Position numbers and translations under genes: made by a program
In this document: positions 19,555-29,872 of the stretch, piece after piece
How the letters are laid out: every line of letters starts with the position of its first letter
Position numbering within the stretch: the first letter of the stretch is position 1
The notes under the pieces: model-generated
Databases searched by the model: none
Told to the model about the DNA's origin: nothing
Seen by the model: the letters and a program-made list of their open reading frames with translations, nothing else
From: Prescottella equi
Lineage (GTDB): Bacteria; Actinomycetota; Actinomycetes; Mycobacteriales; Mycobacteriaceae
Length of the DNA: 64,000 nucleotides
Direction of reading: 5' to 3'
Assembly: GCF_002094305.1 (NCBI RefSeq)
Contig: NZ_LWTX01000001.1
Location: 992,001-1,056,000 of the forward strand

Positions 19555-20364
19555 TCACGCTGCTGCCACCGTCTCGTCCGCTTGCCTGCGTAGGTGCTCG
19601 AGCGACTGCCGCAGTAGCCGGGAGACGTGCATCTGGGACAACCCCACCTGTTCGGCTATCTCGGACTGCGACATCTGGTGAAAATAGCGGAGCCACAACA
19701 GGGTGCGCTGGCGTTCGTCGAGCGTGGCCATGAGCCGACGCAGCAGGTGCCGGTGTTCGACCCGCGAGAGGTCGGCATCGACATCGCCGGTGGTGTGCAG
19801 GCGTGGAACGGAACCGTCCACCGGCGTGGCGTCGAGCGACTCGCACGAGTACAACTCGCCCACGCGCTCAGCTTCCTCGGCTTCCTCCACCGGCATCCCC
19901 AGCGAATGCGCCACCTCGTCGAGTCGGACCGTTCGGCCCAGTTCGGTCGACAGCGATTCCATCCGGTTCCGCACGGCCAGGTGGCTCTCCTGCAGGCGCC
20001 GAGGAACATGGGTGGACCAGGTGAAATCGCGGAAGTACTTGCGGATCTCGCCGCGCACCGATGTGACGGCGTAGGGGATGAAGTCCGTGCCCCTGCTCGG
20101 GTCGAACCGGCGGGCCGCTCCGACCAGGGCGAGGGCCGCCACCTGGCGGAGCTCGGCTGTCGGAACCCCTCGGTTGCGGTACCGGCCGGCGACGCGGTAA
20201 GCCATGGGAAGAGCGGCGACGCACAGTCGGTCCACGCAGCGATGGAGTTCCTCGGGGTCGGTCTCTCCGGACGCGCAATGGTCGCGGAGTTCTTCTATGC
20301 AGCGGCGAACCTGCTCGTCGCAGGCCTCGCGGGAGTCGTCGTAATCGGTGAGGAAGTCGCTCAT
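19555..20364 (-). CDS. RNA polymerase sigma factor, SigF/SigB stress family
   Basis: A 269-residue group 3 sigma factor. Region 2 shows LRQVAALALVGAARRFDPSRG and IPYAVTSVRGEIRKYFRD; region 3 shows RRLQESHLAVRNRMESLSTE; region 4 shows LLWLRYFHQMSQSEIAEQVG and LSQMHVSRLLRQSLEHLR. These are features of SigF/SigB factors for stress. No anti-sigma or antagonist gene is adjacent, unlike the classic usfX-sigF pair. The ATG at 20364 has AGGATG upstream; a more distant ATG at 20469 lacks one and would include the GGTATAGATT element region. It is probably a regulator of the stress genes in this block. Confidence 0.9.
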   Translation of the reverse strand: MSDFLTDYDDSREACDEQVRRCIEELRDHCASGETDPEELHRCVDRLCVAALPMAYRVAGRYRNRGVPTAELRQVAALALVGAARRFDPSRGTDFIPYAVTSVRGEIRKYFRDFTWSTHVPRRLQESHLAVRNRMESLSTELGRTVRLDEVAHSLGMPVEEAEEAERVGELYSCESLDATPVDGSVPRLHTTGDVDADLSRVEHRHLLRRLMATLDERQRTLLWLRYFHQMSQSEIAEQVGLSQMHVSRLLRQSLEHLRRQADETVAAA

Positions 20365-21016: not shown

Positions 21017-21103
21017 CTCGTCCGATCCGAGGCGCTGCCCACACCAATATGTGCACGGTGTCACCCGACAGGTGATGCCGTGCCCCGAATCCCGAGGAGC
21101 TCG

Positions 21104-22171
21104 ATGAGGCCGATTCGTTTCGCTTCCGTCCCGGCTTCCCATGTCTACGTGCGACATCTGGGGTCGCCGGAGTTCGACGACGAGGTGACCCGACTGCCCG
21201 ACCCGGTGCCGGAGGACGGCCGGAAGGTCCCCGGCGGTTGGTGGCCTCCTCTCATGCTCGACCCCGTGTGGATTCGTACGAACGCGTCGAACTTCGACCT
21301 CTTCCACATCCACTTCGGCTTCGACGCGGTGAATCCGAAGACGTTGCAGGACATCGTGGGCGAACTGCGTGATCAGGGAAAGCCGCTCGTCTACACCGTG
21401 CACGATCTGCGCAACCCCCACCATCCGGACCCGTCGATGCACGACGAGCAACTCGACGTGTTGATCCCCCTGGCCGATGAACTGATCACCTTGACGCCCG
21501 GAGCGGCTCGGGTGATCGACGACCGATGGCAGCGCTCGGCGACGGTCCTGCCACATCCGCACGTAGTCGAGAAGGAATGGTTCGCACACCGCGGTGCCTC
21601 CGCCGCCGAAACGTTCACGGTGGGCCTGCACGCCAAGAGTTTCCGCGCCAACATGGACGTCCTTCCGGTCGTCGAGGCGCTCACGCGGGCAGTCTCGGAC
21701 CTTCCCGGCGCCGAACTGAGAGTCGACCTCCACGACGAGGTCTTCGATCCCGACAACCACTGGTACGCGCCCGAAACGGGAGAACTGCTCCTCAAGTACG
21801 GCGATCGTGAACGAGTCACCGTCGACGTGCACCCCTACTACTCGGACGAGCGGCTCTTCTCCTATCTGTCGTCCCTGTCGGTGTCCGTACTGCCGTATCG
21901 GTTCGGCACCCACTCCGGATGGCTGGAGGCCTGCCACGACCTGGGCACGCAGGTGATCGCACCATCCTGCGGCTTCTATCATCAGCAGAACCCTTGTGAG
22001 ACGTACACATTCGACGAAGAACGCTTCGATACGGCTTCACTGGAGGAGTGTGTGCAGCGCGCGTACCGGAAACGGTGGACGTCACCGCGCGCCACCTGGG
22101 AGGAGCGGATGTCGGAGCGACGCTTCCTCGCTCGCGCACACCGAGCAATCTACGAGCGGGCGCTGGGATGA
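21104..22171 (+). CDS. Glycosyltransferase (GT-B, group 1-like), first of four
   Basis: The 355-residue product has a Rossmann-type N-terminal half (RFASVPASHVYVRHLG, FDLFHIHFGFDAV, VYTVHDLRNPHH) and a C-terminal half with SVSVLPYRFGTHSGWLEAC and APSCGFY, the nucleotide-sugar end of GT-B enzymes. ATG 21104 follows GAGGAGC. It overlaps the next gene by 4 nt (ATGA). No membrane segment is seen, so it acts in the cytoplasm. Donor and acceptor are unknown. Confidence 0.82.
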   Translation: MRPIRFASVPASHVYVRHLGSPEFDDEVTRLPDPVPEDGRKVPGGWWPPLMLDPVWIRTNASNFDLFHIHFGFDAVNPKTLQDIVGELRDQGKPLVYTVHDLRNPHHPDPSMHDEQLDVLIPLADELITLTPGAARVIDDRWQRSATVLPHPHVVEKEWFAHRGASAAETFTVGLHAKSFRANMDVLPVVEALTRAVSDLPGAELRVDLHDEVFDPDNHWYAPETGELLLKYGDRERVTVDVHPYYSDERLFSYLSSLSVSVLPYRFGTHSGWLEACHDLGTQVIAPSCGFYHQQNPCETYTFDEERFDTASLEECVQRAYRKRWTSPRATWEERMSERRFLARAHRAIYERALG

Positions 22172-23283
22172 CGGCGACCCTACGGATTGCAATCATCGCG
22201 TCGTCTCGCCACCCCATCCGTCAGCCGTTCGCCGGGGGCCTCGAATCGCACGTGTGGCACCTGGCGCGAGCGTTGGAGCGCGTCGGCCACCAGGTAACCC
22301 TGTTCGCCGCGGACGGTTCCGACGCCGACGTCGCGAGCGGAAACCTGAGGGTCAGGTCGTTCCGGCCGAGTCGCCTCGCCAGCGGTGATCCGTCGATGCC
22401 GCATCCGGAGTTCCTCGCGGACCATCACGCCTACCTCGGGCTCATGCTGGAACTCGCGGAACACGGTGCCGATCGCTTCGACGTCGTGCACAACCACAGC
22501 CTGCACTATCTGCCGCTGGCAATGGCACCGACGCTTACGGTCCCGATGGTCAGTACCCTGCATACCCCGCCGACGCCGTGGCTGGGGTCGGCCACCGCGC
22601 TCACCGGCGGCGTCGGCGTGGATTTCGTTGCGGTGAGCGGGCATACCGCCGCGGCCTGGGAATCCGTTGTGAAAACCCCGATCCGAGTCGTTCCGAACGG
22701 AGTCGACACCGATGCTTGGCCGCTCGGAGAGGGCGGCGACGGCGCCGTATGGTTCGGCCGCATCACCGAGGAGAAGGGCACCCACCTGGCGATCGACGCT
22801 GCCGAGCGAGCGGGCATATCGCTGCGGATCGCGGGGCCGGTGAGCGATCCGGCCTACTTCCGCACCGCGGTCGAACCCCGTCTGCGGGCCGGCGTCGTCG
22901 ACTATCTCGGGCATCTGCCGTGTGCCGACCTGGCCCGGCTCGTAGGCGATTGCGCCGTGTCGCTCGTGACTCCTGACTGGGACGAGCCGTACGGGCTGGT
23001 GGTAGCCGAATCTCTGTCGTGCGGGACGCCCGTCGTCGCGTTCGCGCGCGGCGGAATTCCCGAGATCGTCGACCGGGAAAGCGGACGACTGGTCCCTCCC
23101 GGGGACATCGGAGCAATGGCTTCTGCCATCGCCGACGCGGCGATGCTCCCACGGGCCCGGGTGCGGGCCCGAGCGCTCGCGGCATGCTCGGAAACCGCGA
23201 TGGTCTCCGCATACGAGCGGTGCTACCGATCGGCCGCCAGCCGCAGCGCGGCCCGTCGACTGCAAGGGGTGTCGGTCGCATGA
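22168..23283 (+). CDS. Glycosyltransferase family 4
   Basis: A 371-residue GT4 enzyme: FAGGLESHVWHLARALERVGH at the N terminus binds the acceptor side, FDVVHNHSLHYLPLAM and VSTLHTPP follow, and DEPYGLVVAESLSCGTPVVA with GGIPEIVD is the E-x7-E type donor-sugar motif of retaining GT4 enzymes. WFGRITEEKGTHLAI is also typical. It starts in the previous stop codon and runs into the next gene by 4 nt. Confidence 0.92.
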   Translation: MTATLRIAIIASSRHPIRQPFAGGLESHVWHLARALERVGHQVTLFAADGSDADVASGNLRVRSFRPSRLASGDPSMPHPEFLADHHAYLGLMLELAEHGADRFDVVHNHSLHYLPLAMAPTLTVPMVSTLHTPPTPWLGSATALTGGVGVDFVAVSGHTAAAWESVVKTPIRVVPNGVDTDAWPLGEGGDGAVWFGRITEEKGTHLAIDAAERAGISLRIAGPVSDPAYFRTAVEPRLRAGVVDYLGHLPCADLARLVGDCAVSLVTPDWDEPYGLVVAESLSCGTPVVAFARGGIPEIVDRESGRLVPPGDIGAMASAIADAAMLPRARVRARALAACSETAMVSAYERCYRSAASRSAARRLQGVSVA

Positions 23284-24278
23284 TCGGGTACTACGTGCAC
23301 CACCACGGTCGCGGGCACCTGACCCGTGCACGGACTCTCGCCGGTCGGCTCGATACACCGGTCGTCGCGCTCACTTCGCTCGCCCTCGAACACCCGCACC
23401 CGTTTCGCGAGGTCGTTCATCTCGACCGGGACGACGCCTCGACCGCACCGCGAAATCCCACCGCCGGCGGTGCACTGCACTGGGCGCCGCTGCAGGACCC
23501 GGGACTCCGGTCGCGGATGGCGACGCTCGCCGACTGGATTCGCACCGCGCGCCCTCGGGCGATGATTGTCGACGTATCGGTCGAGGTCGCCACGTTCGTG
23601 CGCCTGATGGGTGTTCCCACGGTCGTGATCGCGATGCCGGGCGAGCGCGACGACGCGGTCCACCGGGTTGCGTACGACGTGGCGGACCACATCATCGCCG
23701 CGTGGCCGCGCGAGCTGTATGCACCGGCCTGGCTGGAGCGACACGCCGCCAAGACGACCTATGTGGGTGGCCTCAGCCGTTTCGGGGAACGTGCCCGGGC
23801 CGTCACGGGAGACTCCGGCACCGTCCGGGTCACGGTGCTCAGTGGCGCGGGCGGAACGTCGCTGACCCGGCAACGCCTCGAACAGTGGAACACCGCCGTA
23901 CCGGGCGTCGAGTGGGTCACGCTCGGCGGGCCGGGGGGATGGAAGGACGATCCCTGGCCGGATCTGTGTGCGAGTTCGGTGGTGGTCACGCATGCCGGAC
24001 AGAACGCCGTCGCGGACGTCGCCGCCGCCGGTGCCGCGTCGATCGTGATCCCGCAGGAGCGCCCTTTCGCCGAACAGGTCACGACGGCCGGCGTGCTGCA
24101 CGCCGCGCGCTTGGCGGTCGTACAACCGTCCTGGCCGTCACCGGCCGAGTGGCCCGGCCTGATCGAGCGGGCTCGACAGGGCGGGGGGTCGGATTGGGAA
24201 CGGTGGAACACCCGCGGAGCCGTGGACCGTGCCGCGGCTGCCGTCGAACGCGTCCTGGACGGAGGTGGAGCCGGATGA
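23280..24278 (+). CDS. Glycosyltransferase, MurG/GT28-like
   Basis: The 332-residue protein opens MIGYYVHHHGRGHLTRARTL, the GHG-type start of MurG-like and UDP-glycosyltransferase enzymes that scan for an acceptor. The C-terminal half has VTHAGQNAVADVAAAGAASIV and IPQERPFAEQ, the donor-binding motif of GT28. It shares ATGA overlaps with both neighbours, so translation is coupled through the set. Confidence 0.85.
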   Translation: MIGYYVHHHGRGHLTRARTLAGRLDTPVVALTSLALEHPHPFREVVHLDRDDASTAPRNPTAGGALHWAPLQDPGLRSRMATLADWIRTARPRAMIVDVSVEVATFVRLMGVPTVVIAMPGERDDAVHRVAYDVADHIIAAWPRELYAPAWLERHAAKTTYVGGLSRFGERARAVTGDSGTVRVTVLSGAGGTSLTRQRLEQWNTAVPGVEWVTLGGPGGWKDDPWPDLCASSVVVTHAGQNAVADVAAAGAASIVIPQERPFAEQVTTAGVLHAARLAVVQPSWPSPAEWPGLIERARQGGGSDWERWNTRGAVDRAAAAVERVLDGGGAG

Positions 24279-25147
24279 GGACCTCTGTGGTGACCGTGGT
24301 GTCGGGCCGACACGACCACTTGCGCACGCAATTGCGTCGGCTGCGCGGATCGACCGTGGCCGCACACGACCACGTCGTCGTCGCGATGGGCGACCGGGCC
24401 GTCACCGACATCGTCGCCGAGCATTCCGACGCCACTCGCAGCGTGTGGATCCCGGCCTCGACCGACGAGCTTCCACTGGCGAGGGCACGCAACCTCGGAG
24501 CGGAGGCAGCGATCGACCGAGGGGCGGATCTGCTGGTGTTCCTGGACGTGGACTGCGTCCCACACCCGCGGATGCTCGGTCGTTACGAGCGGGGCGCCGC
24601 GACGGCACAGCATCGGGACACGGTGCTGTGCGGGCCCGTGACCTATCTCGATGCCGAGGCGTCGACCCGAATCCGGGAGTATCCCGGGGCGGGCGTACCA
24701 CCGGTAGCCCCGCATCCGGCACGCCCGGCGCCACCGGACGGGACCGTCCTGGTCGACGACCGGTACGAGCTGTTCTGGTCGCTCTCGTTCGCCGTTCGCC
24801 CGCGGGTGTGGCAACGCCTCGGTGGTTTCTGCGAGGACTACACGGGGTATGGCGGAGAGGACACCGACTTCGCCCAGGTTGCTGCGGCAGCCGGGGTGGG
24901 GCTCGCCTGGGTCGGGGGAGCGGACGCATTCCACCTCCACCACCGCGTCTCCGACCCTCCCGTCGAGCATCTGGACGACATCCTCCGCAACGCCGCAATC
25001 TTCGAGCGCCGCTGGGGCTGGTGGCCGATGCGGGGATGGCTCGACGCTTTCGAGTCGCGAGGTCTCATCCGCTTCGACGAGCAGTCGAAGGCCTGGAGCC
25101 GGCCGAACGCCGCGCCCGTGGGTGCCGGTCCTGCCAGCCCTCCATGA
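24275..25147 (+). CDS. Glycosyltransferase family 2
   Basis: A 290-residue GT-A enzyme: MRTSVVTVVSGRHDHLRTQL, ARNLGAEAAIDRGADLLVFLDVDC (the DxD-like donor-metal site is DVDC) and GGFCEDYTGYGGEDTDFAQ (the ED acceptor-base motif). It lacks membrane segments. It ends 39 nt before the catalase gene, so it could be cotranscribed with it. The four adjacent transferases suggest a four-sugar or stepwise glycoside. Confidence 0.88.
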   Translation: MRTSVVTVVSGRHDHLRTQLRRLRGSTVAAHDHVVVAMGDRAVTDIVAEHSDATRSVWIPASTDELPLARARNLGAEAAIDRGADLLVFLDVDCVPHPRMLGRYERGAATAQHRDTVLCGPVTYLDAEASTRIREYPGAGVPPVAPHPARPAPPDGTVLVDDRYELFWSLSFAVRPRVWQRLGGFCEDYTGYGGEDTDFAQVAAAAGVGLAWVGGADAFHLHHRVSDPPVEHLDDILRNAAIFERRWGWWPMRGWLDAFESRGLIRFDEQSKAWSRPNAAPVGAGPASPP

Positions 25148-25186
25148 GTGACCCGAATTTCGATCACATCCGACGAACAGGAAGGA

Positions 25187-27313
25187 ATGATGTCGTTGTC
25201 CATCAACGAATTCGATGTTCCCGGTGCGCCGAGCGCACTCACCCCCGAGAAGGCCGAGCCGACGAGCGGGCCGGTTCCCCGGCTCACGAAGGACGACCAG
25301 TCGGGACCGGACCGGATCTCGCCGACCGGCGCCGCCGACGGCGATCGGCGGCAACAGGGTGAAACGCTGACGACCGCGCAGGGTGCCCGGCTGACCGACA
25401 CCGATCACTCCCTCAAGGCGGGGCCGCGGGGACCGATTCTGCTGCAGGACCATCATTTCCGCGAGAAGATCACCCATTTCGATCACGAGCGCATCCCGGA
25501 GCGAGTGGTGCACGCGCGCGGTGCCGCAGCGCACGGCGTCTTCCGGGCGAATGGAGCGGCGGAGAACATCACGTCCGCAGCGTTCCTCCGGAAGGACGTC
25601 GAGACACCGGTCTTCGTGCGGTTCTCCACCGTGCTGGGTTCTCGGGGGTCGGCGGACACCGTCCGCGACACCCGTGGATTCGCGACCAAGTTCTACACCG
25701 AAGACGGCACGTTCGACCTCGTCGGCAACAACATCCCGGTCTTCTTCATCCAGGATGCGATCAAGTTCCCGGACATCATCCATGCCGGTAAACCGCACCC
25801 GGACAGGGAGATTCCCCAGGCGCAGAGTGCGCACGACACATTCTGGGATTTCGTCACCCTCCACACGGAGGCCACCGCACACACGATGTGGAACATGTCG
25901 GATCGTGGAATCCCACGTTCGTACCGGATGATGGAGGGCTTCGGCGTCCACACCTTCCGGATGGTCGATGCGGACGGCAAGACCAGCCTGGTGAAGTTCC
26001 ATTGGAAGCCGCGACTCGGTGTGCACTCCCTCGTGTGGGAGGAGGCGCAGATAGCGGCCGGCGTCGATCCGGATTTCCACCGCCGGGACCTGGCCGACGC
26101 GATCGAGAGCGGTGCCTACCCGGAGTGGACGCTGGGCGTCCAGGTCTTCCCGGACACCCCGGAACAGGAATTCGAGGGTATCGACCTGCTCGATCCCACC
26201 AAGTTCGTGCCCGAGGAGTTGGCGCCGGTGCAGCCGATCGGTGTCATGACGCTCAACGCCAACCCCACCAACTACTTCGCCGAGACCGAGCAGGTGGCCT
26301 TCCATCCCGGCCACCTGGTGCCGGGCATCGACGTCACCGACGACCCCCTGCTGCAGGGCCGCCTCTTCTCCTACCTCGACACCCAGATCAGCCGACTCGG
26401 TGGACCCAACTTCGGGCAGCTCCCGATCAATCGCCCGCACGCGCCGGTCAACGACATGCTGCGGGACGGCATGCACCAGACGGCCGTCCACGACGGGGTC
26501 GCGCCCTACAAGCCGAACAGCCTCGACGGTGGGTGCCCGTTCACCGCCGCGCCGGGCACGGGTTTCGTGGACGTGCCGGTGCCGATCGAGGCGACGACCA
26601 AGCAGCGGACCAAGCCGAGCTCGTTCGACGACCACTTCAGTCAGCCGCGACTGTTCTACACGAGCCTGTCCGAGGTGGAGCAGCGTCATCTCGCCGATGC
26701 CTACTCGTTCGAGCTCGGGAAGTGCTTCGAACAGCCCATCAAGGAACGTGCCCTCGAGGTGCTCGCACGCGTCGACAAGACCCTGTGCGAGCACGTCGCA
26801 GGGTCGCTGGGCCTGCCGGTTCCCGAGGTCGCCGACAGCGAACCGGATCTGCCGTCGAGCCCGAGCGCGGCCCTGTCCCAGATCGGTGGGGAGTGGCCGG
26901 TCGAGGGCCGAAACGTGGCGGTCCTCGTGGACGAGGGATCCGCCGCGGATTCCGTCGAGGCGGTTCTCGATGTGCTTTCCGGCCACGGAGTGGTCCCGTT
27001 GGTCACCGCTCCGCACGGGGGACGACTGACGCTCGGGGACAGCGCTGTCACGGTGTCCCGGACGTACGACACGGCCCGCTCAATCGAGTTCGATGCCGTC
27101 CTGTCCCTGACCACCGAACCGGACGCGCGAGTGGTCCGGTTGCTCGACGAGGCCTTCCGCCACGGCAAGGCTGTGGGTGCCGACTCGAACGGCGCGGAAG
27201 GCCTGGCGTCCGGCGCGCGCGAGAAGCCGGGCGTGCACGTGGGCGACGACCTGCGGCAGGTGACCGACCAGGTAGTCGAACTGATGCGATCCCACAGGGT
27301 CTGGCAGCGCTAG
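25187..27313 (+). CDS. katE: Large-subunit monofunctional haem catalase (HPII type)
   Basis: This enzyme breaks down hydrogen peroxide. At about 708 residues it is a large-subunit (clade 2) catalase, not the 500-residue kind. The distal histidine is in RVVHARG (about residue 109), the conserved core is [17 protein letters not shown] and [19 protein letters not shown], and the proximal haem tyrosine is in RLFSYLDTQ (about 396). The C-terminal 150 residues ([30 protein letters not shown]) form the flavodoxin-like domain seen in HPII. RBS AGGAAGGA precedes ATG 25187; ATG 25190 is as good. It follows the glycosyltransferases and precedes a catalase-like protein. Confidence 0.96.
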
Positions 27314-27376
27314 CTGCCTCGACGGAAGGTGCCGGCGTGCGATTCGAATCTGCGGCCACGGGGTAATCCGGTCCGT

Positions 27377-28087
27377 ATGGATGGGTTGCGCAAGGCGGTG
27401 TCCGCGCCGTTCGAGGTGGGTTCGGCGGTCCGCGGTGCGCGGATCTTCCATCCGCACGGTGTGTTGTTCGAGGGTATCGCCGAGTTCGACACCGGGGATG
27501 CCGGTCGGGGGCGGTGGCCGCTCCCGACCGGCGACCCGGTGCCGCTCCATGCTCGCCTGTCGCGCGGGATCGGTCTCCCCGGTCCGCTGCCCGACATCCT
27601 CGGTGTCGCGGTGCGTCTGCGTCTACCCGGTGGTCCGTGGGATCTGCTGCTCGCGTCGGCCTTCGTACCCGCGCGCATCGCGCTCGTGCCGGCCCGCTCG
27701 TGGGCGAGCGCGAACTTCAGCACGCTGGCCGCGTATCGGGGGATCGACGGCGCGGCGCCTCGGTGGATCGTCGCGGCTCCCGTCGGGGGCCGACCGGACG
27801 GCCCGCCGTCGCTCGAGGATCTGGTGCCACCGCTGTCCTTCGGGGTCGGACTGGCGTCCGCACGCGGAGCGCCGGTTCCGGTCGGGTCCTTCCGCCTGAC
27901 GCGGCGGATACCATGCGAAGACGGTGACCAGCCGTCCTTCGACCCCGTGCTCAACTGTCCGGCCGGAATCCGGATGTGGCCGTCCTGGTTGGCCAGGATC
28001 CGCCGCATCGCCTATGCAGGCAGTCGGCGGGGTCGGGGGACCGATGCCACGAGGACATGTAACCCGGTGGAGGATGCGATTACATGA
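27377..28087 (+). CDS. Small catalase-superfamily-like protein, unknown function
   Basis: The 236-residue product is often annotated as hypothetical or phosphodiesterase in relatives. PHGVLFEGIAEF and HARLSRGIGLPGPLPDILGV followed by RLRLPGGPWDLLLAS line up by eye with the catalase stretch [25 protein letters not shown] and [14 protein letters not shown]. The distal-histidine segment is shortened to FHPHG, and no RxFxYxDTQ tyrosine is seen, so haem binding and peroxide activity are doubtful. ATG 27377 starts 63 nt after katE; the stop overlaps the CDGSH gene (ATGA). Confidence 0.7.
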   Translation: MDGLRKAVSAPFEVGSAVRGARIFHPHGVLFEGIAEFDTGDAGRGRWPLPTGDPVPLHARLSRGIGLPGPLPDILGVAVRLRLPGGPWDLLLASAFVPARIALVPARSWASANFSTLAAYRGIDGAAPRWIVAAPVGGRPDGPPSLEDLVPPLSFGVGLASARGAPVPVGSFRLTRRIPCEDGDQPSFDPVLNCPAGIRMWPSWLARIRRIAYAGSRRGRGTDATRTCNPVEDAIT

Positions 28088-28329
28088 GTGCCGAAGTGAA
28101 CGGCGACGTCAGGATCACCGTGTGCCCGGACGGACCCCTCCTCGTGCGCGGTGCGATCGAGTTGGTGGACGCCGACGGTGCGCCCGTGGACGTCCAGCGC
28201 AACGTCGTCGCCCTGTGCAGGTGCGGCGGAACCAGGAATCCACCGTTCTGCGATTCGACACACAAGAAGAAGAAGCCGCGGCGTGCCGTGCGGACCGCGG
28301 CGCGGGCGGAAGAGGGAGGAGAACCGTGA
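28084..28329 (+). CDS. CDGSH iron-sulfur domain protein
   Basis: An 81-residue protein with one CDGSH-type motif, CRCGGTRNPPFCDSTH, which binds a [2Fe-2S] cluster through three cysteines and one histidine. CDS replaces the usual CDG, a common variant. The N-terminal half (VCPDGPLLVRGAIELVDADG) is the prokaryotic CDGSH lead. The tail is basic. It sits between the catalase-like gene and a diiron protein, overlapping each by 4 nt, so it probably delivers electrons or iron to one of them. Confidence 0.93.
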   Translation: MSAEVNGDVRITVCPDGPLLVRGAIELVDADGAPVDVQRNVVALCRCGGTRNPPFCDSTHKKKKPRRAVRTAARAEEGGEP

Positions 28330-29396
28330 TGCTGCCGCTTCGAGAGGGTGCCGCCGGCGAACGACTCACCGGTCGGATGGCCGTCCCGGTCATGCGAGGG
28401 GATGCCAGCGGTATCCTCTTGGACGTTCTGCGAGGCGAGGGCGAGCCGGACAGCTTCCTGACCGCAGCCGCGGAACTGAGCGCGCGGTACGACGCCGACG
28501 CCCTCGGCATCCTCCACGACGACGACGCGCAGCTGTGCCTGACGTTGCTCTACGAACTGCACCTGCAGGGCATCGACGGCGTCGACGACCGCTGGGAATG
28601 GGATCCGCGTCTCGTCGCGGCCCGACGGCTGCTGGAGCGACCGTTCGACGCCGCTATCCGCGCGCTCGCCGACGACCGGGTCGCTGCGGCGCGGGGTCGA
28701 TTCGGGGACGACGTGGTGGCGGCGCTGTGGGACATGACCGCCCCGACGAGAGAGCCCGGCCTCTCGGACTTCATGGCAACGGAAGCGGTGCTCGAGCAGT
28801 TCCGCGAATTGCTCATCCACCGGTCGCTGAACCAGCTGCGTGAGGCGGACCTCTACACCTTCGGCATCCCGCGCATGGCCGGGGCGCCGAAGGCCGCGCT
28901 GCTCGAGATCCAGATCGACGAGTACGGGCAGGGGCGGCTCGACCGCATGCACTCGCGACTGTTCGCGACCACGATGCGCGAACTGGGCCTGTCCGACGCC
29001 TACGCGCACTACCTGGACGCCGTTCCCGCGGTGACGTTGGCGACGTTGAATGCGCTGTCCTATTTCGGGGTGCACCGCCGCAATCTCGGCGCTCTCGTCG
29101 GCCACCTGTGTGCCATCGAGACGACGTCCGCGTTGCCCAGCAAGAAGTACTCGGCCGGCCTGCGACGCCTCGGTTACGGGAGCGCCGCGACGTTGTTCTT
29201 CGACGAACATGTCGAGGCGGATTCCGTCCACGAGCAGATCGCGGTCCGCGACCTCGCGGGCGGTCTGGTGAGCGATCGGCCGGAGCTGCTCGACGACGTG
29301 CTCCTCGGGGCGGCGGCGTGCCTGGCGTTGGACGACCTCCTGGGCGAGCACGTCACCGACTGCTGGTCGCGGGGCAGGAGCTCGCTGCGGTCCTGA
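28326..29396 (+). CDS. Iron-containing redox enzyme, haem-oxygenase-like diiron family
   Basis: A 356-residue protein of the haem-oxygenase-like diiron oxidase (HDO) superfamily. Likely iron ligands are in LLYELHLQG, EIQIDEYGQGRLDRMHSRL and the C-terminal CAIETTSAL and FFDEHVEADSVHEQIA; this E/H/D/H pattern is that of the family. HDO enzymes perform oxidative cleavage and hydroxylation reactions. The substrate here is unknown. GTG 28326 overlaps the CDGSH stop and has GGAGGAG upstream; ATG 28329 is equally possible. Confidence 0.85.
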   Translation: MMLPLREGAAGERLTGRMAVPVMRGDASGILLDVLRGEGEPDSFLTAAAELSARYDADALGILHDDDAQLCLTLLYELHLQGIDGVDDRWEWDPRLVAARRLLERPFDAAIRALADDRVAAARGRFGDDVVAALWDMTAPTREPGLSDFMATEAVLEQFRELLIHRSLNQLREADLYTFGIPRMAGAPKAALLEIQIDEYGQGRLDRMHSRLFATTMRELGLSDAYAHYLDAVPAVTLATLNALSYFGVHRRNLGALVGHLCAIETTSALPSKKYSAGLRRLGYGSAATLFFDEHVEADSVHEQIAVRDLAGGLVSDRPELLDDVLLGAAACLALDDLLGEHVTDCWSRGRSSLRS

Positions 29397-29417
29397 GTAG
29401 CTCCGGACGACTTGTCC

Positions 29418-29444
29418 GGTTTGATCGAGGCACCTCTTGGGTAG
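29418..29444 (+). promoter_or_regulatory. SigF-type promoter before the iron permease
   Basis: GGTTT (29418-29422), 16 bp, then GGGTAG (29439-29444) matches the mycobacterial SigF consensus GGTTT-N15-17-GGGTA closely. It is 30 bp before the permease start. A SigF/SigB-family gene lies about 9 kb away in the same block. Confidence 0.65.
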
Positions 29445-29473
29445 TGCCCCACCAGATCCTTGTGGAGGTACCC

Positions 29474-29872
29474 ATGCAGCAGTCCGTCACCATGCCGTCG
29501 GGCGTCGTCGGCAAACTGTCCGTGTTCGACAGGTTCGCTACGGCGACAAGTAATTTCACTTCGCGTGCGGTGTTCTTCGTCGCGTGCGTCATCATCGTGG
29601 TGGTCTGGGCGCCGTCGTTTCTGGTGTTGCAGAACATCGACACCTGGCAGCTGATCATCAATACGATCACCACCATCGTGACGTTCCTGTTGGTGGCCCT
29701 GCTGCAGAACACACAGAAGCGGTCCGACGACGCGGTGCAGCAGAAGCTCAACGCCATAGCAGACGGGCTCGCCGATCTGATGGAGGAGCTCAGCCGCGAG
29801 CACCCGGGTCTGCGCGTGGACCTGGAAGAGCTTCGCGCGGCGGTGGGAATCGAGAAGCGCGAGGGCGCGTAG
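29474..29872 (+). CDS. Low-affinity iron permease family protein
   Basis: The 132-residue protein has two membrane segments: AVFFVACVIIVVVWAPSFLVL and LIINTITTIVTFLLVALLQNTQ. A soluble helix with DDAVQQKLNAIADGLADLMEEL follows. This is the short bacterial Iron_permease (FET4-like) family. Name and fold are known, but transport was not shown for most members. The ATG has GGAGG upstream and lies 30 bp after a SigF-type promoter. Confidence 0.82.
   Translation: MQQSVTMPSGVVGKLSVFDRFATATSNFTSRAVFFVACVIIVVVWAPSFLVLQNIDTWQLIINTITTIVTFLLVALLQNTQKRSDDAVQQKLNAIADGLADLMEELSREHPGLRVDLEELRAAVGIEKREGA

Follow-up and report, generated by a model that had tools for sequence, protein, structure and literature searches.

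The question raised by a 64,000-nt stretch of the Prescottella equi genome (contig NZ_LWTX01000001.1, positions 992,001 to 1,056,000; the window, with coordinates counted from its first letter) is whether two adjoining genes, one for a CDGSH-type [2Fe-2S] protein and one for a haem-oxygenase-like diiron oxidase (HDO), belong to a larger module or form a system of their own. An original prediction, made from the sequence alone, had described five consecutive plus-strand genes at 25187-29872, encoding a catalase, a catalase-like protein, the CDGSH protein, the HDO and an iron permease, as one iron and peroxide module, and the five genes were confirmed in that arrangement. Comparison of loci and genomes redraws the module as HDO and CDGSH, to which a HemK2-type methyltransferase is added in many lineages. 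HDO-CDGSH, often with the methyltransferase, looks like an undescribed stress-linked enzyme system, and the neighbouring catalase looks incidental in this genome. The general-stress setting had not been part of the original prediction, and the methyltransferase partner lies outside the window.

The diiron oxidase and its CDGSH neighbour

The HDO gene lies on the plus strand and runs from 28326 (GTG) or 28329 (ATG) to 29396. Its product matched PF14518 (2.1e-54; 184.5 bits, cut-off 28.9), and a profile search of the PDB matched RohS, HrmI, SznF and BesC at 9e-17 to 1.8e-5. Residues E172, E198, H208, E264, H294, D298 and H301 (numbered from the ATG at 28329) align with the seven ligand positions of SznF, which we take to be E189, E215, H225, E281, H311, D315 and H318; E198 is a putative metal ligand by this alignment position. 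All seven positions were invariant in 119 of 119 HDOs, and the diiron ligands named in the original prediction are present. Most HDOs use three histidine and three carboxylate ligands, and about a quarter use three and four (PMC13108848). The protein family is acidic, with a mean net charge of -17.7 over 120 sequences.

The CDGSH protein (28084-28329, plus strand), here the proposed electron donor of the HDO, has 81 residues and PF09360 as its sole family match (7.7e-19); the eponymous motif reads CDSTH in the window copy, which was the one CDGSH gene revealed by a PF09360 search of this genome. Its closest solved relative is 3tbm (1.4e-15). Among HDO-linked relatives, the cluster motif C-x-C-x2-[STA]-x3-P-x-C-D-x-[STA]-H was complete in 113 of 113, and the ten residues after the CDGSH motif were basic, with a mean charge of +2.1 in the 113 and a minimum of -1.

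The two genes were found to be kept or lost together. A survey of 251 family genomes, including the one under study, with the HDO protein and a CDGSH profile as queries revealed both genes in 185, HDO alone in two, CDGSH alone in two and neither in 62, a near-perfect co-occurrence for which Fisher values, like those for the methyltransferase and for the phylum sample below, ignore the relatedness of the genomes. The two HDO-only genomes are 87% and 83% complete, and the CDGSH-only genomes rest on weaker matches. One genus includes six genomes that retain both genes in unlinked form, either on separate contigs or 2 Mb from each other.

For gene order, 120 HDO loci were compared, 40 of them from family genomes and 80 kept from a named-genome scan of 501 confirmed relatives; they were picked by HDO similarity, a non-random choice in which at least two genomes appear twice (L038/L072 and L044/L076). 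CDGSH was present at 113 of these loci and within 300 nt of the HDO at 82, which is far beyond chance. Together with the family survey, this bears out the conservation of the CDGSH-diiron pair in actinobacteria that the original prediction had called for. Linkage was observed in every orientation, namely HDO to CDGSH on the same strand (59 loci), CDGSH to HDO (6), divergent (26) and convergent (22), and 21 pairs overlap by exactly 4 nt. At least ten changes of orientation were counted on the HDO tree, whose counts leave out L072 and L076. As to the seven loci without CDGSH, the genomes of L069, L077, L089 and L124 carry it elsewhere, that of L079 gave a partial match, that of L142 a weak partial match and that of L110 no match.

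A Gordonia polyisoprenivorans plasmid (L195:4458-5498) perhaps carries a decayed copy: its HDO match spans 46% of the query, the gene annotated there is short, and the annotation of the surrounding stretch lists no CDGSH.

Third neighbours and general-stress genes

Clustering of neighbouring genes revealed a small S-adenosylmethionine methyltransferase with an NPPYVP motif invariant in 13. Its closest solved protein is human N6AMT1/HemK2, and three of its relatives pass the HemK2/MTQ2 model TIGR00537 (99.2-119.2 bits, cut-off 87); the copy in this genome was compared with Pfam models alone. The methyltransferase was found in 179 of the 251 family genomes, all of them with HDO, and eight of 187 HDO genomes are without it. 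Of the 22 genomes that carry it in a 296-genome sample of the phylum, 21 also have HDO, and the one exception is 81% complete. A match above 95 bits was found in one of 38 genomes outside Mycobacteriales. Its usual place is next to CDGSH on the same strand, overlapping or directly adjacent, or else at the end of HDO; in the plasmids of Streptomyces and Kitasatospora that were read, it likewise neighbours CDGSH.

In this genome, the methyltransferase gene (G000:C1:1081220-1081858) lies about 60 kb from the HDO. It is part of a second general-stress island (L200:6226-12393; G000:C1 ~1081226-1087393) together with CsbD-like, zinc alcohol dehydrogenase, CinA, GAF-ANTAR, STAS and SigB/F/G genes. 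Since two loci of the same genus, L034 and L035, keep HDO, CDGSH and methyltransferase together in a similar island, HDO-CDGSH may have moved to the side of the catalase gene katE in this genome.

A glycosyltransferase-like gene (weak Pfam matches, best 2.1e-5) was present in 36 of the 120 loci and is the usual neighbour in Micrococcales and some other groups. For 26 clustered genes of this type the median distance to the HDO was -3 nt, with 25 on the same strand. It was never found together with the methyltransferase (0 of 120 loci). The glycosyltransferase-like gene bears on an alternative that we consider unlikely, in which methyltransferase and HDO would target, under stress, a glutamine or lysine site in a translation factor or another protein, with CDGSH as donor. 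Such a protein modification would agree with the TIGR00537 matches of the three relatives and with N6AMT1/HemK2 as the nearest solved structure, whereas a glycosyltransferase-like neighbour is a poor fit and the HDO substrates described are mostly fatty or amino acids, ribosomal peptide modification being an exception (PMC13108848).

A YbdK-type carboxylate-amine ligase gene was observed in 13 of the 120 loci (L084, L093, L099, L102 and L108 among them) and also adjoins the HDO in the Kitasatospora plasmid. A dimethylargininase gene next to the HDO in Kitasatospora was considered as a clue to the substrate and dropped, being present in one of the 120 loci.

Recurrent neighbours among the 120 loci included stress-type short-chain dehydrogenases/reductases (19), SigB/F sigma factors (11), anti-sigma factors (10), zinc alcohol dehydrogenases (9), Mn-catalases (8), GAF-ANTAR proteins (8), STAS proteins (6), OtsA (6) and Dps (4). 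These names were mostly given by eye, and several of the types were confirmed by Pfam in the second island of this genome. A published map of conserved Rhodococcus regions around alkane monooxygenase genes shows CDGSH and GAF/ANTAR genes, the former possibly the same as those considered here (PMC11854999, Figure 2 legend).

Promoter-like sites were searched in the window with the pattern G-N-TT-N14-17-GGGTA. Five distinct sites were found (24824, 27341, 29418, 43674 and 47337), 1.1 being expected; we take GTTT-N15-17-GGGTA to be the SigF/SigB-type promoter consensus. One SigF-type site, GATT-N16-GGGTA at 27341-27365 on the plus strand, ends 11 nt before the start of the catalase-like gene catL, and its spacing to the start is the same as at the HDO genes of relatives. 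Another (29418-29443, plus strand) precedes the permease-like gene. A third (24824-24849, plus strand) lies about 340 nt before katE, inside the fourth of the glycosyltransferase-like genes described below, and may be due to chance. In Mycobacteriales, GGGTA was found to end 6-14 nt before the HDO start at 11 of 42 loci, the control bins having a mean of 0.29 and a maximum of 2; these spacing counts leave out L072, L075 and L076. The SigF-type sites together with the SigB/F, STAS, GAF-ANTAR, CsbD-like and catalase neighbours suggest a general-stress setting for HDO-CDGSH. This genome holds three SigB/F/G-type sigma genes scoring above 210 bits, at G000:C1:1086719-1087393, at C2:461754-462422 and in the window (19558-20364, minus strand). 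Two of them pass the TIGR02980 cut-off; the SigF-like general-stress factor of the window is below it (211.3 bits) and also below that of NF005514 (217.8 bits).

With general-stress genes at many loci and the pair sometimes 2 Mb apart, HDO, CDGSH and methyltransferase could be bystanders, sharing a general-stress regulon and its islands rather than one reaction. We judge this improbable. The other island genes were each found in 4-19 of the 120 loci against 113 for CDGSH, and HDO and CDGSH are jointly kept or lost even when unlinked.

Catalases, permease and flanking genes of the window

The first of the five genes, katE (25187-27313, plus strand), encodes a long haem catalase of the HPII type (PF00199, PF06628, PF18011). 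It is followed after 63 nt by catL (27377-28087, plus strand), the first gene of the CatL-CDGSH-HDO unit. The CatL protein of the window gave no Pfam or NCBIfam match at E 0.1, nor any Pfam match when the threshold was relaxed to E 1. Three of 15 CatL relatives matched PF00199 (best 4.9e-4), and the CatL profile matched PDB catalases at 7e-6 in two collinear blocks. A structural model (pLDDT 78) gave 3e4y as best fold match (TMq 0.63), and all 28 PDB chains at E <=0.001 have the catalase fold, comprising catalases, catalase-related proteins, allene oxide synthases and chanoclavine synthase. His25, Arg209 and Tyr213 are invariant in 15 sequences and align with the distal His and the proximal Arg and Tyr of catalases; the distal Asn, judged by eye, appears replaced. 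By profile and fold comparison, CatL is a predicted divergent mini-catalase. The protein behind that best fold match, from Mycobacterium avium subsp. paratuberculosis (33 kDa, catalase-related; 3e4w/3e4y; profile 1.6e-5), is 19-21% identical to CatL, which is about 65 residues shorter.

The fifth gene (29474-29872, plus strand), 77 nt after the HDO, encodes a low-affinity iron permease-like protein (PF04120 1.8e-22, 78 of 128 profile positions). The 4-nt overlaps stated for the three middle genes hold for CatL/CDGSH (28084-28087), and for CDGSH/HDO (28326-28329) if GTG is the HDO start. Given the gaps of 63 and 77 nt and the promoter-like sites before CatL and the permease-like gene, a single operon of the five genes is not established.

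CatL was found in 94 of the 251 family genomes, 93 of them with HDO. It is near the HDO in five of the 120 loci, two of these from the same genome, and was rejected as a constant HDO partner on that count; the conservation of the catalase-like gene with the pair, named in the original prediction as a check, was not borne out. KatE homologues were found in four of the 120 loci (L032, L046, L067 and L151, the last from Kocuria tytonicola), within 300 nt of the pair in L067 and L151, and permease homologues near two. Outside the window, the full five-gene order was seen once, in locus L032 of the same genus; among the 17-kb surroundings in five other genomes of the genus, it was again L032 alone in which KatE, CatL and the permease-like gene stand beside the pair.

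Joint handling of iron and peroxide by KatE, CatL, CDGSH, HDO and the permease, as originally proposed, is consistent with the identical order in the sister genome L032, with KatE beside the HDO in three lineages and with HDO in 93 of the 94 CatL genomes. The locus counts given above, one genome in five within the genus itself and the separate promoter-like sites make such a five-gene module very improbable.

KatE adjacency (window, L032, L067 and L151) needed three changes on the HDO tree, all forced by starred branches. In 500 label shuffles the mean was 4.0 changes, and 16 shuffles were as low as three. L067 sits on a long branch and its placement is unsure; the three changes could also equal one gain and two losses. 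KatE next to HDO-CDGSH is a recurrent but optional association. Mn-catalase homologues were found in nine loci, from eight genomes of the 120-locus set; the numbers of catalase neighbours are raw counts, for which we do not claim enrichment.

These catalase neighbours bring up handling of iron or reactive oxygen species, in which the HDO would bind iron or destroy peroxide in resting or dry cells and CDGSH would load or repair the labile diiron site by supplying it with iron or an Fe-S cluster. We regard this as possible, if rather unlikely. Besides KatE beside the pair in three lineages of the HDO tree and the Mn-catalase homologues, it can draw on Acinetobacter baumannii, in which dtpC, an HDO gene, shares a transcript with katE; either one of the two is sufficient for cells to survive drying and to keep H2O2 in check, and DtpC loses its protective effect with any one of three metal-ligand changes, iron binding and peroxide destruction being two of the options discussed for it (PMC13232832). 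The diiron cluster is also labile in many HDOs (PMC13108848). On the other side, DtpC gave no protection from acute H2O2 (PMC13232832), the functionally studied HDOs are biosynthetic enzymes (PMC13108848), and the methyltransferase present in 179 of 187 family HDO genomes is left without a role.

Upstream of KatE, four glycosyltransferase-like genes lie on the plus strand (21080-22171, 22168-23283, 23274-24278 and ~24275-25147), the first three assigned by Pfam, the first of these below its cut-off, and the fourth by eye. Relatives of the first three stand near the pair in a few Rhodococcus loci (L032, L038, L039, L072 and L074). GC content at third codon positions is 0.80 and 0.78 in the first two, 0.85 in KatE and 0.90 in both hisD and LysE; the stretch 21080-27313 is perhaps an acquired island, a suggestion resting on two or three genes, and the gene caller behind these values missed the CDGSH, HDO and permease-like genes. 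Downstream of the permease-like gene, the minus strand carries genes for a LysE-type protein, a glycoside hydrolase (by eye), a GMC oxidoreductase and then hisD (by eye).

A possible two-protein oxidase and its known counterparts

With slightly better than even confidence, we favour HDO and CDGSH as a two-protein general-stress oxidase with its own [2Fe-2S] donor, acting on a small molecule. It rests on the co-occurrence of the two proteins, their linkage in all orientations, their retention when unlinked and the invariant ligands, on the confinement of the methyltransferase to HDO genomes within the family, and on [2Fe-2S] genes of another type beside HDOs elsewhere. Nine distant HDO regions outside actinobacteria, drawn from plasmid HDOs, were read, and in four (Rhizobium, Azospirillum, Gloeothece and Methylobacterium) a Rieske [2Fe-2S] gene lies downstream of the HDO, by Pfam in three of them; in Azospirillum and Gloeothece it overlaps the HDO by 4 nt. 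The best clue to electron donation is this apparent exchange between Rieske and CDGSH proteins. The acidic HDO and the basic CDGSH tail, as in the MboA-MboB pair discussed below, point the same way. The stress role is suggested by GGGTA at HDO starts and by the katE-linked HDO that protects drying A. baumannii.

For electron transfer, substrate, product and regulation of HDO-CDGSH, we infer the following course. CDGSH as electron donor of the HDO is the best reading, as the original prediction had proposed, and it would take electrons one at a time from a cellular reductase and hand them to the diferric HDO. The reduced HDO would then activate O2 and oxidise its substrate, a small molecule that probably resembles an amine or amino acid. 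The same pathway would include the methyltransferase or glycosyltransferase, and its product may aid cells through starvation, drying or oxidants. Adjoining KatE and CatL might clear peroxide from uncoupled turnover or merely share the regulon.

Several results weigh against the two-protein oxidase. In the phylum sample, HDO was found in 50 and CDGSH in 95 of the 296 genomes. The 26 genomes of the same family, order or class divide into 19 with both and seven with neither, whereas outside the class a CDGSH match was present in 19 of 31 HDO genomes and absent in 12; 57 genomes gave a match to CDGSH but none to this HDO. From this split, the HDO-CDGSH tie is tight within the class and loose beyond. 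In 17 HDO regions of the phylum outside the class, no CDGSH or Rieske gene adjoins the HDO, and in five of the nine distant loci (Variovorax, Komagataeibacter, Vibrio, Novosphingobium and Klebsiella) there is no [2Fe-2S] neighbour. GGGTA precedes CDGSH in one of 41 Mycobacteriales cases, and outside Mycobacteriales the signal is weak for both genes (3 of 75 HDO, 4 of 69 CDGSH). The third neighbour changes 34 times on the HDO tree. In several genomes the methyltransferase adjoins CDGSH and not the HDO, for which reason CDGSH might serve the methyltransferase rather than the HDO. Our confidence in the two-protein oxidase was lowered to the level given above on account of the CDGSH promoter signal and the third-neighbour changes.

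Replacement of CDGSH by Rieske proteins or ferredoxins in deep-branching actinobacterial HDOs was also considered; none adjoined the HDO in the 17 regions. L216 was the one region whose fetched stretch contained a CDGSH gene at all, at a distance of 7 kb; it also has, 2.2 kb from the HDO, a frame of 511 residues with a Rieske-like motif. Ferredoxin-like pattern matches in these regions lie in short frames across the HDO gene and are considered chance. On the Methylobacterium plasmid (L193:2456-6513), methyltransferase, HDO, Rieske and ATP-grasp genes stand in a row resembling a small biosynthetic cluster, and in Gloeothece (L188) HDO and Rieske are followed by ATP-grasp two genes on.

A wider proposal, which we hold tentatively and at clearly less than even confidence, is that CDGSH proteins are dedicated donors to an O2-activating diiron oxidase, in the place taken by Rieske proteins beside some related enzymes of other phyla, and that, together with either a glycosyltransferase or a methyltransferase of the HemK2 type, they produce a protective small molecule under general stress across the class Actinomycetes. 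For most HDOs, the physiological source of electrons has yet to be settled, and little is known, to our knowledge, of what bacterial CDGSH proteins do; the pair bears on both questions, and its presence in 185 of 251 genomes makes them testable with two small soluble proteins. It would also extend the HDO-stress link of A. baumannii to a large second bacterial group and points to a metabolite or modification that is widely kept and still to be discovered.

Among characterised HDOs, the window protein matches SznF, HrmI, RohS and BesC by profile, the last a C-C cleaving enzyme; it has all seven SznF ligand positions and differs in having no cupin domain. SznF, HrmI and RohS are N-oxygenases (PMC13232832, PMC13108848). 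The window CDGSH protein has PF09360 and the complete cluster motif in common with CDGSH/NEET proteins (mitoNEET, 3tbm, 3tbn), from which its obligate company of an HDO within the family sets it apart. We know of no dedicated oxidase partner described for CDGSH proteins. No published account of a CDGSH-HDO pair was found among open-licence PMC papers by title and abstract opening, and a term search of a 2026 HDO review gave neither CDGSH nor ferredoxin (PMC13108848).

The DtpC-KatE operon resembles the window in having an HDO beside KatE, a likeness of gene context; the main text of that study does not use the word CDGSH (PMC13232832). Unlike the co-transcribed dtpC and katE, KatE adjacency is optional in the window HDO family (4 of 120 loci), and CatL and a promoter-like site lie between the two genes here.

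The closest parallel in organisation is MboA-MboB of mangotoxin biosynthesis, according to its authors (2026) perhaps the first characterised dedicated HDO-redox pair (PMC13185094). In that system the partner MboB, encoded in a toxin gene cluster, is a reductase that uses NAD(P)H and contains both flavin and Fe2S2, whereas the partner in the window is an 81-residue CDGSH protein without a flavin domain in a suggested general-stress setting. Both pairs have in common an HDO with a dedicated, adjoining redox gene carrying Fe2S2, and the acidic HDO surface and basic partner patch of MboA-MboB are matched in the window family by an acidic HDO and a basic CDGSH tail.

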